Of a DNA stretch of 64,000 bases, positions 2,342-8,446 are shown piece by piece. The stretch lies in assembly GCA_023958095.1 (NCBI GenBank), contig JAMLGJ010000011.1, positions 1-64,000 on the forward strand. Direction: 5' to 3'. The notes under the pieces are model-generated. The model saw only the letters and a program-made list of their open reading frames with translations. It ran no database searches and had not been told where the DNA came from. Position numbers and translations under genes: made by a program. Each line of letters begins with the position of its first letter. Position 1 is the first letter of the stretch. The stretch is from Microthrixaceae bacterium (GTDB lineage Bacteria; Actinomycetota; Acidimicrobiia; Acidimicrobiales; Microtrichaceae).

Positions 2342-2512
2342 TCATGTGATCGTCAACCGGTAGTCGCCGGTGCTGGGGTCGAGTGCGACGAGGATGCACC
2401 GCTCACTCCTGAGGGCGCGGGGCTTCTCCTCGACGAGGGGGTGCGCATCGCGTCGCCATGGCACCGGTGGGTGCTCGTTGCGCTTGGACACCCTGGTGAT
2501 CGTGTCGACCAT
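2342..2512 (-). CDS. Possible small protein (56 aa) at the end of the exporter operon
   Basis: An open frame of 56 codons with coding-like third positions. It ends ERCILVALDPSTGDYRLTIT. It lies 75 nt behind the permease stop and in the same reading frame as the permease, so it would be made from the same mRNA. No clear ribosome site precedes the ATG at 2512. I do not recognise the family. It could be a real small protein of the peptide-export locus, a remnant, or a chance frame. Confidence 0.4.
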   Translation of the reverse strand: MVDTITRVSKRNEHPPVPWRRDAHPLVEEKPRALRSERCILVALDPSTGDYRLTIT

Positions 2513-2587
2513 GGTGGATGCATCGGTGCTTCGCCGGCCCTCTGAAGTGGAACGGGCCCGTTGGACCAGCCGGATGATCCGAGAGGC

Positions 2588-3385
2588 TCAGTAGCTTCCC
2601 AGCACGCCGGTTCTCACGGCGGCACGCAGGCACCAGCGGTACACGAGCACCGATGCGGGCAGCATCACCACCGTGAAACCGGTGAGAACGAGTGTTTCGG
2701 TGGCGACGTCCTGCCAACCCGCGTCGGCGAGGAGCAGTTCGCGCACCGCCCGGATGCCCCAGGTGGCGGGAAGCATCCAGCTGATCACCTCGAGGAAGCG
2801 GGGGAGCAGGTCCACCGGGACGATCACCCCCGAGAGGAGCATGCTGGCCTGGTAGAACGGCCCTGAGATCGGGTCGCCGCGCTTGACCAACAGCATCATG
2901 CCGCCGATCGCCACGCCGACCGCAGCGAAGGTGGCGGTCGTCAACAACAGCACCGGGATCGACATCAGCAACCCGCCCAGGGGGATCCCGCTGCCGATGA
3001 TGCCGATGCCGATGCCCAGCAGGCCGGCGATCTGCAGCGTCGCGAGCACGAAGGGCAGCGCGAACATCCCGACCATCAGGGAGGGGATGGGAGCCGGGGA
3101 CGCCAACAGCAGGTCGATCGTGCCGGTGTTCTGCTCCCTAGCGAGGGATTCACCGAACGACGCCAGGCCCACCCCGGCGAACGACGTGACCGCCAGTCCG
3201 ACCAGGGCGAAGTCGAAGTAGTTGCCGCCGTACGCGGCGAGTGAGGACGGTTCCTCGACCATGATCGACACGAAGTAGATGGCGATGGCGATGACCGCCA
3301 TGTCCACGAACTGCAGCGCCAGGCGCATCTGGTAGGTGCGTTCGATCGCCCAGTCACGGCGCAGGATGGCGAGGACGATCCTCAC
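2588..3385 (-). CDS. ABC-2-type transporter permease
   Basis: A 265-residue protein with about six hydrophobic segments and the ABC-2 hallmark region SFGESLAREQNTGTIDLLLASP in its first half. It is the membrane half of an exporter whose ATPase is encoded immediately upstream. Start GTG at 3385 overlaps the ATPase stop by 4 nt (GTGA), so the two are translated in a coupled way. The operon begins with a PqqD-like gene, so the substrate is most likely the modified peptide made at this locus; that is inferred from context. CcmB-like or daunorubicin-type exporters are similar in shape, but no close match can be claimed. Confidence 0.8.
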   Translation of the reverse strand: MRIVLAILRRDWAIERTYQMRLALQFVDMAVIAIAIYFVSIMVEEPSSLAAYGGNYFDFALVGLAVTSFAGVGLASFGESLAREQNTGTIDLLLASPAPIPSLMVGMFALPFVLATLQIAGLLGIGIGIIGSGIPLGGLLMSIPVLLLTTATFAAVGVAIGGMMLLVKRGDPISGPFYQASMLLSGVIVPVDLLPRFLEVISWMLPATWGIRAVRELLLADAGWQDVATETLVLTGFTVVMLPASVLVYRWCLRAAVRTGVLGSY

Positions 3386-4179
3386 CGGGGGCCCTCCCCG
3401 CGCTCGTAGTCGGGGCGCATGTCCTCGAGCAGCATCGACTCCAGCTTCGAGGCCACCGTCGAACCCTCGGAGCGCAGGCTGTCCATCTCGCCGCTGAAGC
3501 GGATGTGTCCGTCGATCAACACCGAGACGTCGTGGGCGGTGCGCTCCAGTTCCTCGAGGCGGTGCGAGGACAACACGACGGTGTGTCCGTCGTCGGCGAG
3601 CTGGCGGAGCAGGCCGCACACCTCGTTGGCGGCGACGGGGTCGAGGCTCCTGGTGGGCTCGTCGAGCACGACCACGGCCGGTTCGTGCACCAGTGCACGT
3701 GCGATCCCGAGCTTGGCGCGCATGCCCGTGGAATACCCGAAGACCAGCCTGTCCACCTCGGCGAGTCCGAACTGCTCGAGCAGCTCCTCGGAGCGCGACC
3801 GCGCCTGTTCGGTCGTGAGCCCGTGGAGGGTGCCGTGGAACTCGAGGTTCTGGCGACCCGTGAGCCGCCAGTACAGCGAGCGGTCGTCGGCCAGCACGAG
3901 CCCGAGCCGCCTGCCAGCTGCACGACGGTCGCTGCTCGGGTCGACCCCGTCGAGGGAGACCGTTCCGGAATCGGGGCTCAGGAGTCCGCTCACGATCCTG
4001 ATCAGCGTGGTCTTGCCCGCTCCGTTGGGACCCACGAGGCCGTGGATGCGGCCGGGCTCGGCACACAGGGTGACGTCGTCGAGCGCGCGGACCTCGGTGG
4101 TCACCGCTGAGCGCAACAACGCCCTCATGAAGCCGGTCGGCGGACGGTAGCTCCGGCTCACTCCTCGGATTTCGAGCAT
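3382..4179 (-). CDS. ABC transporter ATP-binding protein
   Basis: A 265-residue ATPase. Walker A is GPNGAGKTT at about residues 50-57, the signature-like segment is GYSTGMRAKLGIARAL, Walker B is AVVVLDEPT, and the switch histidine is in LSSHRLEE. The signature reads STGM rather than LSGGQ, a variant common in ABC-2 exporters. The ATG at 4179 was chosen because the open frame upstream runs through the PqqD gene in another frame. It lies 55 nt behind pqqD and is coupled to the permease, giving a three-gene minus-strand operon. Confidence 0.88.
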   Translation of the reverse strand: MLEIRGVSRSYRPPTGFMRALLRSAVTTEVRALDDVTLCAEPGRIHGLVGPNGAGKTTLIRIVSGLLSPDSGTVSLDGVDPSSDRRAAGRRLGLVLADDRSLYWRLTGRQNLEFHGTLHGLTTEQARSRSEELLEQFGLAEVDRLVFGYSTGMRAKLGIARALVHEPAVVVLDEPTRSLDPVAANEVCGLLRQLADDGHTVVLSSHRLEELERTAHDVSVLIDGHIRFSGEMDSLRSEGSTVASKLESMLLEDMRPDYERGEGPR

Positions 4180-4234
4180 CCAACCGTCCTCGGTTGCCAG
4201 GGTGCGGGCCGAGCCGTGGGCGTGCGCCCCGGCG

Positions 4235-4522
4235 TCACTCGTCCCGGGAGACCTCGAGCAGGCCCTCGCCCAGGAGTTCCTCGATGAAGGCGGCCACGTC
4301 ATCGCGGATCTGTTGTTCCGGCACCGTGGAGAACTCCTCTGACAACACCTGCACGAGGTCGTCCGCGCTGGCACGTGGAACCAGGCGTGGCCACAGCATG
4401 CTCGCGACAGGATTGAGCGTGATCATCTCCGAACCGCTGGTGTCGAGGACGACCACCCGGTCCTCCACACGGTCCCAGGTGAGCCCTGCTGCATGGGTGT
4501 ATGACATCCCGGAGTTTCCCAT
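4235..4522 (-). CDS. PqqD-family peptide-recognition protein (RRE domain)
   Basis: A 95-residue PqqD-like protein. Typical features are the early strand VVVLDTSGSEMITLNPVASMLW, a helix around DDLVQVLSEEF, and the end IRDDVAAFIEELLGEGLLE. In RiPP pathways this winged-helix fold binds the leader of the precursor peptide and presents it to the modifying enzymes; in lasso clusters it is the B1 protein. A hexamer TAGGCT ends 8 nt before the ATG, so the mRNA is probably leaderless. A second in-frame ATG lies 15 nt in. It heads the exporter operon and is divergent from the nucleotidyltransferase. Confidence 0.85.
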   Translation of the reverse strand: MGNSGMSYTHAAGLTWDRVEDRVVVLDTSGSEMITLNPVASMLWPRLVPRASADDLVQVLSEEFSTVPEQQIRDDVAAFIEELLGEGLLEVSRDE

Positions 4523-4530
4523 CGCACCCG

Positions 4531-4536
4531 AGCCTA
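4531..4536 (-). promoter_or_regulatory. -10 hexamer of the pqqD-exporter operon
   Basis: TAGGCT on the minus strand, ending 8 nt before the pqqD ATG. It shares a 44-nt gap with the opposite-strand promoter of the nucleotidyltransferase gene, so the two may be co-regulated. Confidence 0.55.
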
Positions 4537-4553
4537 TCGGCGCTGCGGGCCGA

Positions 4554-4559
4554 TACGAT
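4554..4559 (+). promoter_or_regulatory. -10 hexamer of the nucleotidyltransferase gene
   Basis: TACGAT ending 7 nt before GTG 4567. This spacing, repeated across the window, implies a leaderless transcript and decides the start codon. Confidence 0.6.
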
Positions 4560-4566
4560 CCTGGGC

Positions 4567-5754
4567 GTGTCGAGAGGAGCCGTTACTGCCCGTGGGCGCG
4601 AGCGGCACATGGTGCGCACGCTTGCCGACGCGGTGCGCGACCCCCGTGGCTGCTCGGTTCCCGGACCATCGATCGGTGACGGAGCCGATGTCGAGGACCT
4701 CGTCGAGGTGGCCGAGCGCGAAGAGGTGCTGGGTGTGCTCGCAGTGGCATTCGAGGCACGCGGGGTCGAACTGCCAGCCGCGGTGGCCACCGCGGCCGAC
4801 AGGGCACGGCTGTCACACCTTCAGGCCGCCCGGGCGCTGCGAACGGTTGCCCGGGTGCTGGATGCGCGCGGGGTTCGCTGGGTGGTGGTCAAGGGCCCGG
4901 CCGTGGCCTCAATGTGGCCGGCCGGACAGGTGTCGAGGACCTACGAGGACCTCGACGTGCTGATCGGGCGGTGTGACCTGCCAGCGGCCTGTGAGGCGCT
5001 GGTCGAAGCGGGCTTCGAGCACCGCAACCACAACTGGGGCGGGTTCATCGACCTGGGTGTGGCCGAGATCCCCCTGGACGACGGCTCGGTGGTGCTGGAT
5101 CTGCACTGGAACCTGGTTGCCCTGGCGGACCAGCGGCGCGACCTGTGCATCGACACCGAGGCACTGCTGGACAGGGCCCGACCCGACGGCATGGGGATTC
5201 CGGGCGTGGCGACCCTGGCCGCAGCGGATGCGTTCGTGCACCTGTGCTGCCATGCGGGACTTGCCGGGGCACGCAGCCTGCGCCTCCTGCGCGACGTGCA
5301 CCTGGCAGGCGCACGCGTCGAACCCGACGAGGCGCGGGCAGCCCTGGCCCGGGCCGGATGTGCACGCCTGGCCGCCCCGGTGCTGGACCGGGCGGTGCGA
5401 TGGTTCGGGCCGCTTCCCTCACCCACCGGGGGCACATCGGACGCCCGCAGGATCTGCGGGCATCCGGGGTGGATCGTGCTGAACCGCTTCGTCGACGGGA
5501 TCTGGGCCCTCGTTCGTGGTGTGCGCAGGCCCCTTCACCCCGGCGCACTGGTCTCCTCCGGGCGCCGGGACCTGCGCTCGAGCGCTGCGGCGTTCCTCGA
5601 GCGCCTCACGGTTGCGGTGAGGAGTCGCCTGGGGATGCGCACCCTCGTGTCGGAAGGAGGCGCGTTGCACTGGGAGACCGTGGGGCACGGCGGATCGCAG
5701 CGTGGCCTGGACGACTACCTGCGCTACGTGGCCGGCGAGAGCCGCTGCAGCTGA
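4567..5754 (+). CDS. Nucleotidyltransferase-fold protein of the peptide locus
   Basis: A 395-residue protein. The nucleotidyltransferase-fold signature sits at about residues 105-132: VVKGPAVASMWP, then RTYEDLDVLIG, whose DLD supplies the metal-binding acids. Such proteins are found in lasso and related peptide clusters (the N protein of paeninodin-type loci) beside an HPr-kinase-like enzyme. They are presumed to modify the peptide or its phosphate group, but the exact reaction is uncertain. The start GTG 4567 follows a -10 hexamer by 7 nt; ATG 4609 is the alternative and lacks a good ribosome site. Its last 31 nt overlap the convergent kinase gene. Confidence 0.75.
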   Translation: MSRGAVTARGRERHMVRTLADAVRDPRGCSVPGPSIGDGADVEDLVEVAEREEVLGVLAVAFEARGVELPAAVATAADRARLSHLQAARALRTVARVLDARGVRWVVVKGPAVASMWPAGQVSRTYEDLDVLIGRCDLPAACEALVEAGFEHRNHNWGGFIDLGVAEIPLDDGSVVLDLHWNLVALADQRRDLCIDTEALLDRARPDGMGIPGVATLAAADAFVHLCCHAGLAGARSLRLLRDVHLAGARVEPDEARAALARAGCARLAAPVLDRAVRWFGPLPSPTGGTSDARRICGHPGWIVLNRFVDGIWALVRGVRRPLHPGALVSSGRRDLRSSAAAFLERLTVAVRSRLGMRTLVSEGGALHWETVGHGGSQRGLDDYLRYVAGESRCS

Positions 5755-6758
5755 TGGCCGGACTCGAGCTCGCCGAGCATCTCGGCTGCCCGTCGGAGCC
5801 GCTGGTCGGCATCGCAGGCCAGCCGGAGCTCGGCCACCGGCCCATTCGCGAGCTTCGCCGCGGTCGGGAACCACGAGGCCAGTGGGGCGGGAAGTGCGGA
5901 GAGTACGAATGCGGACACCAGCAGGTCCAGGGCGTCGGCACCTGCGGCGGGGAGGAGCCGGCCGGGTCCGCTGTCGTGCCCGCAGATCACCACCGCGGTG
6001 ATCCTCGCCGGATCGGGCTGCAACACGTGGCCCTCCAGCTCGATTCGCTGTCGGTCATCACCCGGCAGCACCTCGGTGTCGGCAGCGCGTTCGGGGAGAA
6101 CCTCGGAGGGAACCGTGAGCACGCGGGGCACGCCCCTCGCCACCACGTGGTCACCCTCGGGGTGCACCACGACCATGTCGTCGGCCATCACCTGGCGGCC
6201 CGCAATGATCGCTGCGTAGGTGAGCGTCGACTTGCCCTGCCCGCTGTCGCCCACGACCAGTGCGCACCGAGCGGGGCCGTCGCCGCCGCGGTCGAGCCGG
6301 ATCGCCGCGGCGTGGAGCAGGTAGCGCGGTGTTGCACCGGCGCCCTCCTCGACACGACGCCGCCCGGGGCGGCCCCGATCGCGGAGGTAGAGGTGGGCGA
6401 GCACGAACAGCATGCTGTTGCGAACCGCAACCCAGCGCCGGTAGCCCTCGGCGGGACCTCCCAGGACGGCCCCGTTGGGGCCGACCGATGCGGTGAGCCC
6501 CCAGTGGTGCCTGAAATGGGCCCCTTCGGGGCCGTACCAGTGGTCCCCGTAGGGGCCCGCGAAGTCCGGCTCGCGCTCGGGCACGGCGGGTCCCACCGGG
6601 GCCGTGGTGAGCACCAGGGGTTCGCTGGTTCGCCCCGGATCGAACTGGCGCCGTCCGAGCACCTTGGTGAGCAGTGCCAGGTCGTCCTCGGACTGGGCGC
6701 GCACGACCAGGTCGAGCCCTGCGACGTCCAGGTGGGTCTCCGGCGGGGGGTCTCCCAT
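5724..6758 (-). CDS. HPr-kinase-like phosphotransferase of the peptide locus
   Basis: A 344-residue protein related to the P-loop domain of HPr kinase/phosphorylase. Walker A is GDSGQGKST at about residues 170-177, preceded by the family-typical LLHAAAI and followed by MADDMVVV with the catalytic-type acids. Homologues in lasso-type clusters phosphorylate the peptide C-terminus. The N-terminal 165 residues are poorly conserved, and there is no HPr or PTS gene nearby, so a classical role in carbon control is unlikely. Its ATG shares two bases with the start of the divergent peptidase gene. A TACCCT hexamer ends 8 nt before the ATG. Confidence 0.8.
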   Translation of the reverse strand: MGDPPPETHLDVAGLDLVVRAQSEDDLALLTKVLGRRQFDPGRTSEPLVLTTAPVGPAVPEREPDFAGPYGDHWYGPEGAHFRHHWGLTASVGPNGAVLGGPAEGYRRWVAVRNSMLFVLAHLYLRDRGRPGRRRVEEGAGATPRYLLHAAAIRLDRGGDGPARCALVVGDSGQGKSTLTYAAIIAGRQVMADDMVVVHPEGDHVVARGVPRVLTVPSEVLPERAADTEVLPGDDRQRIELEGHVLQPDPARITAVVICGHDSGPGRLLPAAGADALDLLVSAFVLSALPAPLASWFPTAAKLANGPVAELRLACDADQRLRRAAEMLGELESGHQLQRLSPAT

Positions 6759-7170
6759 GGCTGAGCAGGGTACCGGTGCATCGCCAGAGGCGGCAGCCCA
6801 CCTGTTGAGGGCACGGGCTCGCTCCGCGGAGCTGTGGGTGCCCCTCGAGGGCACCTCGATGCTTCCGACGATCGAGGCTCCCTCGGAGGGCCTGGTCACG
6901 GCCATTCGACGTCCGAGATGGGGGGAGGTCTGGGCCTTCGTGGACGCCCGGGGCGAGCTCACGGTGCACCGCGTGATCGCCCGGCTGCGTGGCGACCGTT
7001 GGCTGCTGCGTGGTGACGGCAGCGAACACACCGATGCGCCGGTGGACGCGTCCCTGCTGATCGGGCCGGTTCGGGTCGTGAGGCACCAGGGGCGGACGCG
7101 GCAACTGCGACGCTCCAGGTTGATGGCACTGCGCCTCCACGCGAGGCGCCTGGTCGGACTGCTGCGGTAG
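6757..7170 (+). CDS. Soluble S24/S26-type signal-peptidase-like protein
   Basis: A 137-residue protein with the S26 catalytic-serine motif PLEGTSMLPT (Ser at about 34) and the second conserved block ELTVHRVIARL, where His (about 71) replaces the usual Lys, as in archaeal and eukaryotic-type signal peptidases. No membrane anchor is visible, so it probably acts in the cytoplasm. Next to a precursor-like peptide gene it is a good candidate for cutting the leader, in place of the missing lasso B2 protease; this is inferred. The ATG at 6757 has GGGGGG 6 nt upstream. Start codons of this gene and the divergent kinase overlap in CCATGG. Confidence 0.75.
   Translation: MAEQGTGASPEAAAHLLRARARSAELWVPLEGTSMLPTIEAPSEGLVTAIRRPRWGEVWAFVDARGELTVHRVIARLRGDRWLLRGDGSEHTDAPVDASLLIGPVRVVRHQGRTRQLRRSRLMALRLHARRLVGLLR
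6767..6772 (-). promoter_or_regulatory. -10 hexamer of the HPr-kinase-like gene
   Basis: TACCCT on the minus strand, 8 nt before the ATG at 6758. It lies inside the first codons of the opposite-strand peptidase gene. Confidence 0.45.
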
Positions 7171-7219
7171 TCGGTTCTCCCGGGAGTCGACTGGGTGATT
7201 CAACCCTTCGGAGCAGGTA

Positions 7220-7255
7220 GGGAAGACCTTGTGAATGGGTCGGGAAGACCTTGTG
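7220..7255 (+). repeat. 14-bp direct repeat upstream of the precursor gene
   Basis: GGGAAGACCTTGTG occurs at 7220-7233 and exactly again at 7242-7255, a 22-bp step (about two helical turns). The second copy runs into the -35 element of the precursor-gene promoter, so this looks like a regulator binding site. Confidence 0.7.
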
Positions 7256-7279
7256 GGCTGGTGGGATTGCGGCTAGATT
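7251..7279 (+). promoter_or_regulatory. Promoter of the precursor-like peptide gene
   Basis: TTGTGG (7251-7256), a 17-nt spacer and TAGATT (7274-7279) match the housekeeping sigma pattern. Transcription would start near 7286, giving a 5' untranslated region of about 54 nt. The -35 box overlaps the second 14-bp direct repeat. Confidence 0.65.
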
Positions 7280-7339
7280 GACCGGATCCGCAACAAGAGG
7301 AAGGGCCCGTACCGGGTTCGAGGTCATCTGGAGGCCGAA

Positions 7340-7432
7340 ATGGACTACGCAGCGCCGAAGATCGAGTCCCGCGCCGAGGTCAAGGGCCTCATGAAGGGTC
7401 GCGGCGGCCACCACGGCGGCGGCTACCGCTGA
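7340..7432 (+). CDS. Precursor-like peptide with lasso-type leader (30 aa)
   Basis: A 30-codon gene. GGAGG sits 5 nt before the ATG, a promoter 54 nt upstream and a terminator 6 nt after the stop, so it looks like a complete, independently expressed unit. The leader begins MDYAAPKIE, matching the YxxP recognition motif of lasso-type leaders that is bound by PqqD-like proteins; it continues with an RAEVKGLM segment. The tail is KGRGGHHGGGYR: Gly/His-rich, with no Asp/Glu at positions 7-9 for a lasso ring and no Ser/Thr for phosphorylation. The product is therefore probably not a classical lasso peptide. The peptide assignment is supported by context; its final structure is unknown. Confidence 0.75.
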   Translation: MDYAAPKIESRAEVKGLMKGRGGHHGGGYR

Positions 7433-7438
7433 TCCCCT

Positions 7439-7460
7439 GACCGGTGCTGCGGCGCCGGTC
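7439..7460 (+). terminator. Terminator of the precursor peptide gene
   Basis: GACCGG pairs with CCGGTC around a GC-rich inner stem and a TGCG loop, starting 6 nt after the peptide stop codon. The following bases are not T-rich. Confidence 0.6.
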
Positions 7461-7603
7461 CCGATTCTGAACTGGCCGTCTTCACTGCGGGCTCGGGCGA
7501 CTCGACTTCTTGGGTTGAGCACCCCCACCACCAGTGTCGACGGTCGGTCCGCGTCCGCACCGGTGTTCGCGGCTGTGCTGGGGAATGTGTTGTACGCGGT
7601 TGC

Positions 7604-8434
7604 TCACCGCCTGCGCCGTCTAGCGAGCCTGTGTGCTGTCCGCCTGAAGCGTCGTTCACCCGGGAACCTGTCGGGCAGCCGCAGGTTCACCGAGGTCTGC
7701 TGTTCCAGCCATCCCTGGTCCTGGGGGATCGACATGGGGTTGCCCTCGACGACGCTGCCGAGCAGCCCCACGCCGTAGGCCTGGGCCATCTCCACGACCC
7801 TGGAGACCAGCATCCAGCTGATGCCCTGGCCGCGGGCCTCGGGCATCACGCGCAGGTGCTCGAGGATCATGAAGTTGGGTGTCGGTCCCGAGGTCAGAAC
7901 CGCTGCGTCGACACCCCGCTCGCCGTCGTGCACCACGGCACCGCGCTGTTGTATGCAGCGCCGTAGGTAGACCCGGCGCGCCTTCTTCCCGGTGACGAAG
8001 ACCACCTCGTACCCGGCGAAGACAGCCTCGAGGGCATCCAGGTCGAGGATCGTTGCGAGGCGGGTCTCGCTGCCACTGGGTGCCCATCCGCACTGCTCTG
8101 CCGGTGTGACCACCCGAACGAAGTGCTCCGTCTCACCGGCCCGTTGCATGTGTTCAAGGAGTGGGTCGACGTCCTCGGGGTGGCCGTCCAGTCCCACGAC
8201 CGGAGTCGCCTCGATCGCTCGTGCGAGCCCGGGGGCGTCGCGTGGGTCGGCGAGTCGGGGGTATCCGAGCCAGACCAGGGGTTCCCGGCGCACGATCACG
8301 CAGAGGGAGCCGCCGTACCTGACGACCCGGGCGTCGCGTGGGTGCCCGGCTGCAAGGACTGCCCCGATGGCGAGGGTGGAACGGGGTTCGTGTCGGGCCA
8401 GCTCGGTGATCAGTTGGTCATCGACGCGTTCCAC
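7604..8434 (-). CDS. GNAT-family acetyltransferase-like protein
   Basis: A 276-residue protein whose C-terminal half has the GNAT fold: the acetyl-CoA loop in HLRVMPEARGQGISWMLV (residues about 198-215), followed by a helix and EGNPMSIPQDQGW. The N-terminal half (residues 1-130) is unrelated to known catalytic domains I can name. The end is an Arg-rich tail. The GTG at 8434 follows TACGCT by 6 nt, so the mRNA is leaderless. It borders the peptide locus and could acetylate the product, but it may equally be an unrelated housekeeping gene. Confidence 0.7.
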   Translation of the reverse strand: MERVDDQLITELARHEPRSTLAIGAVLAAGHPRDARVVRYGGSLCVIVRREPLVWLGYPRLADPRDAPGLARAIEATPVVGLDGHPEDVDPLLEHMQRAGETEHFVRVVTPAEQCGWAPSGSETRLATILDLDALEAVFAGYEVVFVTGKKARRVYLRRCIQQRGAVVHDGERGVDAAVLTSGPTPNFMILEHLRVMPEARGQGISWMLVSRVVEMAQAYGVGLLGSVVEGNPMSIPQDQGWLEQQTSVNLRLPDRFPGERRFRRTAHRLARRRRR

Positions 8435-8440
8435 GGCCCG

Positions 8441-8446
8441 AGCGTA
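8441..8446 (-). promoter_or_regulatory. -10 hexamer of the GNAT gene
   Basis: TACGCT on the minus strand, 6 nt before GTG 8434. Confidence 0.55.

Follow-up and report, generated by a model that had tools for sequence, protein, structure and literature searches.

Can a ribosomally synthesized and post-translationally modified peptide (RiPP) be made with the accessory enzymes of a lasso peptide pathway and without the machinery that closes the ring? The question is raised by a locus in a Microthrixaceae bacterium (Actinomycetota; GenBank assembly GCA_023958095.1, 3.25 Mb and 94% complete), within the stretch of 64,000 nucleotides analyzed here, positions 1 to 64,000 of contig JAMLGJ010000011.1 (the window). 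An earlier note, made from the letters of the window alone, had named at this locus genes for a PqqD-like protein, an ABC ATPase and permease, a nucleotidyltransferase, an HPr-kinase-like protein, an S26-type peptidase, a 30-residue peptide and a GNAT protein, and had pointed out that the AsnB-like cyclase and B2 protease of lasso clusters were missing. Domain searches and structure models confirmed all of the named genes, within 6 kb and where they had been placed, and neither an AsnB-like nor a B2 gene was found within the locus. The eight neighboring genes are a real conserved cassette, and the locus probably specifies a pathway of the type found in Linear Polyphosphorylated Peptides (LPPs), leading to a short linear RiPP without a macrocycle. 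Its components are as follows.

2588-3385, minus strand: ABC-2 type permease of the exporter, 265 residues (PF01061, E 3.5e-18)
3382-4179, minus strand: ABC ATPase of the exporter (PF00005, E 1.4e-29)
4235-4522, minus strand: PqqD-type RiPP recognition element, RRE (PF05402, E 4e-16)
4609-5754, plus strand: NTP_transf_5 protein of nucleotidyltransferase fold (PF14907, E 6.5e-27)
5724-6758, minus strand: kinase of predicted HprK/PEPCK fold (weak match to HprK_C, PF07475, E 0.0012; fold by model)
6757-7170, plus strand: soluble S24/S26-type (SipW-like) protease, predicted, 137 residues (weak match to Peptidase_S24, E 0.005; fold by model)
7330-7334, plus strand: Shine-Dalgarno sequence GGAGG, 5 nt ahead of the precursor ATG
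7340-7432, plus strand: precursor peptide of 30 residues, with the leader motif common to 22 precursors
7604-8434, minus strand: GNAT acetyltransferase (PF00583, at 20.6 of 20.7 bits)

The pathway type has been known since 2026 from the lpp biosynthetic gene cluster of Paenibacillus alginolyticus DSM5050 (Popov et al., Nat Commun 2026; PMC13381572), which comprises an RRE (LppB), a SipW-like protease (LppS), an HprK kinase (LppK), an NTP-transferase (LppN) and an MsbA-like protein (LppD). LPP precursors carry the motif YxxPxVLxHQxIxFETxxS; LppK adds up to four phosphates to the precursor, at core Ser3, and the leader is cut by LppS, with LppB being required (PMC13381572). The authors assigned neither the role of LppN nor the final product, and stated in May 2026 that LPPs are restricted to Bacillota (PMC13381572). 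Features held in common with the cassette are the NTP-transferase gene, the precursors, one to several in number, in which the leader is conserved and the core varies, a pathway devoid of macrolactam cyclase and B2, and a patchy distribution, in addition to the three components compared residue by residue below.

The precursor of the window, MDYAAPKIESRAEVKGLMKGRGGHHGGGYR, is one of 22 collected from the window and the other carriers of the cassette. Almost every carrier has, immediately 3' of its S26 gene and in the same orientation, an open reading frame (ORF) of 30-44 codons, and often there are two in tandem; the precursor of genome G652 (G and L numbers are our handles for genomes and loci) is found beyond the NTP_transf_5 gene instead, and that of G412 adjoins an RRE on a separate contig. 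In G652 the position directly 3' of the S26 gene, where the precursor stands in other loci, is taken by a reverse-transcriptase-like ORF (L156:11470-12792, plus strand). The 22 leaders conform to a consensus of 16 residues, Y-E-x-P-x-[IV]-x(5)-[LVI]-x-G-x-[LM], in which Y, P and L/M are invariant (22/22) and G is conserved in 21/22; past L/M the information falls sharply and a variable core follows. All 22 thus contain the YxxPx[VI] part of the LPP leader, with equal spacing, the distance from Y to L/M (16 residues, inclusive) being that from Y-16 to T-1 of LppA. Because of this equality we infer cleavage after G-x-[LM], which would split the window precursor into MDYAAPKIESRAEVKGLM and the core KGRGGHHGGGYR. 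Counted from the inferred site, the cores span 5-26 residues. Ser is present in 21 of them; GS follows R or W in 13 (as RGS in eleven, for example in MKYEEPKITQKVDLEGELGRNHPPKPGRGSGVYES), and in 13 the last residue is Ser or Thr. A Gly/His-rich type of core is represented by the window, G001, G008, G124 and G652, and recurs in distant carriers.

The recruiting and processing proteins correspond to LPP components at the level of individual residues. The RRE profile matches TbiB1 (5v1u) and LppB (9x8z; E 3.5e-8), and N37, D75 and F79, which do not vary among 16 orthologues, are equivalent in an alignment to 9x8z to N33, D70 and F74 of LppB, which hold the Tyr and the Pro (kink) of the YxxP leader (PMC13381572). 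Since the sequence matches of the kinase and the S26 protein were weak, both folds were predicted with AlphaFold2 from alignments of 14 orthologues and compared with solved structures. The S26 model (pLDDT 92.8) superimposes on 3s04, a type I signal peptidase, with Z 11.2 and rmsd 2.0 across 96 residues. Its S34, H71 and D93, invariant in the 14 orthologues, are equivalent to S29/H68/D93 of LppS, a comparison made with the published residues; the active site is of the Ser/His and not the Ser/Lys kind, and by model and analogy the protein is predicted to be a SipW-like Ser/His/Asp leader protease. The kinase model (pLDDT 90.4) matches HprK/P (1jb1; Z 12.9) over its C-terminal domain and, over its full length, PEPCK (Z 15.2), the catalytic domain of which is related to HprK. 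The likeness to the LPP kinase was drawn from the fold and the catalytic residues; H149, K176, D193 and D194 are invariant in 14 orthologues and make up the His-Lys-Asp-Asp set that lasso kinases have been reported to carry (PMC9266682), and the active site is, as judged from these residues, intact.

The remaining proteins are the candidate decorating enzymes and the exporter. In the NTP_transf_5 protein the KG, DxD and DLH motifs are invariant in 12 orthologues; comparison with solved structures gave nothing significant, and a role like that of LppN, or of PsmN, which has been linked to hexose addition in pseudomycoidin, is proposed. GNAT genes occur in the cassettes of Microthrixaceae, G124 and Aquihabitans, with orthologues adjoining the precursor being 57% and 31% identical; in Aquihabitans sp. 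G128 two to three tandem GNAT genes lie by the kinase, S26 and precursor genes (L073:11075-13364). The exporter consists of two genes, matching ABC_tran and ABC2_membrane, with orthologues in the cassettes that are 41-72% (ATPase) and 37-72% (permease) identical; together with the RRE gene they form a single operon, in which the ATPase and permease genes overlap by 4 nt.

Co-conservation in relatives, a check proposed in the earlier note, is borne out by recurrence of most of the gene set in 16 other genomes, belonging to other genera, other families and one other class. The set is contiguous, in some cases with rearranged gene order, in G001, G002, G008, G389, G395, G652, L085, L086, L089, L091 and L095, and partial or split in L092, G418, G412, G124 and Aquihabitans sp. 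G128 (G292). Both sampled congeners of the window genome, which are Microthrixaceae metagenome-assembled genomes, carry it, intact in G001 and frameshifted in G002, and in G008, of another genus, both the gene order and the flanks differ. Other families of the order are represented by G389, G395, G124 (over two contigs) and the complete genome of Aquihabitans sp. G128, where the RRE-exporter part is at 0.54 Mb and the kinase-S26-precursor-GNATs part at 2.63 Mb. Scanning GTDB with the permease profile brought in L085, L086, L089, L091, L092, L093 and L095, along with a partial L083, and G652, of another actinobacterial class, came from a sample of the phylum. The distribution is patchy, as described for LPPs, with 7 of 397 genomes in the order sample bearing the cassette. 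Weak HprK matches elsewhere (E 1e-5 to 1e-16), mostly in other contexts and some with AsnB, were left out of the count, as was G359 (L074), in which RRE, ABC, S26, kinase and NTP matches were present and a precursor with the strict motif was not found.

Could the missing cyclase simply reside elsewhere, as the earlier note had suggested as its second option? A lasso pathway with an AsnB-type cyclase (and B2) at another place in the genome, or lately lost in this strain, would account for an exporter, kinase and RRE that resemble lasso parts, and the window genome does have three AsnB-like loci, all far from the cassette. Relatives of the exporter in Chloroflexota (L088, L094), in lasso-like loci, also sit with HprK-like genes and B2, and in L094 with AsnB-like and methyltransferase-like genes; no S26 match was found in these two loci. 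Whole-genome searches nevertheless led to rejection of this candidate. The genomes of nine carriers contain no complete Asn_synthase protein, with only short PP-loop matches in G008, G395, G412, G413, G414, G415, G417 and G418 and no match at all in G652, which refutes a cyclase elsewhere for these nine; in the acidimicrobial cassettes, where an AsnB-like gene nearby had been suggested as a thing to look for, there is none. B2 (Transglut_core3, PF13471) is absent from the window genome and the 15 other acidimicrobial carriers searched, while the same search detected it in both Chloroflexota genomes picked up by the exporter profile. Moreover, the cassette RRE is the sole PqqD domain found in the window genome, the core of the window precursor has no Asp or Glu for ring closure, and the precursor has no Thr, including the Thr at -2 of lasso leaders. 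The cassette does not qualify as a lasso peptide locus, and we consider this explanation highly improbable. The grouping of genes in L094 is consistent with an origin shared with lasso clusters, and paeninodin-type and pseudomycoidin clusters share with the cassette an RRE, an HprK-like kinase with the His-Lys-Asp-Asp set, an NTP-transferase, an exporter and a [Y/W]xxP leader; they differ from it in having a macrolactam cyclase and B2 where the cassette has the S26 protease. Albusnodin, an acetylated lasso peptide, likewise has an acetyltransferase gene adjoining an RRE-dependent precursor, yet its cluster includes a cyclase and other tailoring genes. A different target for the enzymes is conceivable, with the kinase and NTP_transf_5 protein modifying a polymer of the envelope, and S26 cutting a peptide that is no more than a secreted signal. 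Related RRE-HprK-exporter sets do occur in polysaccharide loci (L167, L157, L164), as do LPP loci of Bacilli (PMC13381572), but the window cassette lies outside any polysaccharide or capsule locus, in the LPP pathway the peptide has been demonstrated to be a substrate of the kinase (PMC13381572), and in Aquihabitans, despite the separate location of the RRE-exporter part, the kinase, S26 and precursor genes have stayed side by side; we judge this very unlikely. The idea that unrelated genes and a meaningless small ORF are neighbors by chance, suggested by the spread of the genes over both strands and several transcription units, is refuted by the return of the set, its gene order shuffled, in 16 genomes. 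Among three congeners the DNA of the precursor ORF is 62-67% identical while the flanks are 25-34% identical, and ORFs with the strict motif are rare by chance: 4 in 3.2 Mb of shuffled sequence and 2 in 568 kb of other loci, a set that includes the window, so that one of the two is probably its own precursor.

Several observations weigh against assignment to the LPP type. The window core KGRGGHHGGGYR contains neither Ser nor Thr, in contrast to the other 21 cores, all with Ser, and S3T and S3Y variants of the P. alginolyticus peptide were not phosphorylated (PMC13381572); a profile search of the whole window genome gave no second precursor at a significant score. The exporter is an ABC-2 ATPase and permease pair rather than MsbA-like, and the leader ends in x(5)[LVI]xGx[LM] rather than HQxIxFETxxS. 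GNAT genes were not found in the remaining cassettes, about half. Finally, a tree of the cassette RREs with LppB, TbiB1, PbaB1, TfuB1 and PqqD was too weak to place LppB, which fell among the cassette RREs on a long branch with weak support; a constraint uniting the cassette RREs was not rejected (p-AU 0.72), which in so poorly resolved a tree shows little. Further differences are the phylum (Actinomycetota rather than Bacillota), the GNAT of one branch, and the cores, which are Gly/His-rich or RGS-bearing and about 5-26 residues long, compared with 45 in LppA. A plasmid search with an LppB fragment for a Bacillota LPP locus returned no match. Because the MsbA-like exporter and the HQxIxFETxxS part of the leader are lacking, the cassette is an LPP-like variant rather than a member of the LPP family as published. 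There are three possibilities for the window core itself: modification of a different residue, an error in the assembly, or another job for the kinase in this branch. A distinct RiPP class is a further candidate explanation: recruitment and cleavage would be those of LPPs, and Gly/His-rich cores of the Microthrixaceae type would be modified at a terminus or at His/Lys instead of by Ser phosphorylation, with the kinase-fold protein performing another phosphotransfer and the product possibly binding metal. The Ser- and Thr-free core of the window speaks for this, as do the motifs GGHHGG, GGGGHC, HHKHNGGG and GGGGHHS recurring in distant carriers and the GNAT that accompanies most of the Microthrixaceae-type branch. 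We think it unlikely, given Ser in 21 of 22 cores, often in RGS or as the last residue, a kinase catalytic set intact throughout, and the fact that a single wrong base in the assembly could mask a codon for Ser, which differs from one for Gly at one position. A tentative and somewhat doubtful proposal is that Acidimicrobiia hold a separate class, LPP-like in recruitment and SipW-type cleavage but defined by a modification other than Ser polyphosphorylation: short linear peptides, Gly/His-rich or of the RGS type, decorated jointly by the kinase-fold enzyme, NTP-transferase and GNAT, exported by the ABC-2 system, and possibly metal-binding or signalling.

Under the LPP-type reading, which we prefer, the ribosome would make the 30-residue precursor, and the RRE (4235-4522) would bind its YAAPKI leader motif and present it to the tailoring enzymes. 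By analogy with LppA, LppB, LppK and LppS, the HprK-fold kinase would phosphorylate the core or its termini; the NTP_transf_5 protein might then add to the phosphate and the GNAT acetylate Lys or the N-terminus, both being guesses from the PsmN and albusnodin precedents. The peptide may in this way be phosphorylated or nucleotidylated. The SipW-like protease (Ser34-His71-Asp93), recruited by the RRE, would remove the leader, probably after G-x-[LM], and the ABC-2 exporter (2588-4179) would presumably export the core. The earlier note's first option, an unlooped peptide class with the S26 enzyme as leader protease, is therefore upheld in substance by the retention of the cassette, free of cyclase and B2, in acidimicrobial relatives, by the shared RRE-type leader and by LPP biochemistry (PMC13381572); its claim of novelty must be qualified, LPPs having been described. 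Papers on RRE-Finder and on structure-based detection of RREs (PMC7470986, PMC12710340) make no mention of an S26/kinase class, and the actinobacterial branch, with its leader, exporter, GNAT and 22 precursors, appears undescribed in the literature searched.

Other features were noted in and around these loci. The kinase and S26 genes are divergent, with start codons overlapping at 6757/6758 (CATG), and the promoter of each would have to sit within the other gene; the same overlap occurs in G001 (L030:8281/8282) and G008 (L032:9253/9254). Downstream of the permease, an ORF of 56 residues (2342-2512, minus strand), at the left edge of the stretch first singled out in the note, has in its C-terminal part (RCILVALDPSTGDYRLTI) a counterpart at the equivalent position in G002, and none was found in G001. 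At the end of a phosphatase-like gene (2150-2225) are three near-identical tandem copies of a palindromic unit, CCCACCTGGTGGG. Elsewhere, an HprK-RRE-precursor-S26-ABC-permease set lies inside a polysaccharide locus (L167:10121-12149), with a precursor of 85 residues bearing a YERPEV leader and a sortase-like LPSTGG with a hydrophobic segment; the set may be an RRE/S26 module that exports a protein anchored to the cell wall. A locus of another actinobacterial class (L157:1842-8158) combines RRE, HprK-like, B2-like and radical-SAM-like genes and an ABC exporter with a YEKPVL precursor, and a lasso-like small ORF, MRDYEAPTVTEIGRVEDLTETIIIVAQGETS, is found near a relative of the exporter (L168:10394).

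These results extend to a second phylum a family of peptides previously reported from Bacillota alone, and indicate that cyclase-less, lasso-derived linear RiPPs form a wider branch, which includes Acidimicrobiia and one further actinobacterial class. The 22 precursors point to core residues that may matter, RGS and the terminal Ser. Carriers without AsnB and with a single RRE remove the problem of crosstalk with lasso pathways, and the action of NTP_transf_5 enzymes on RiPPs becomes testable in a smaller system.

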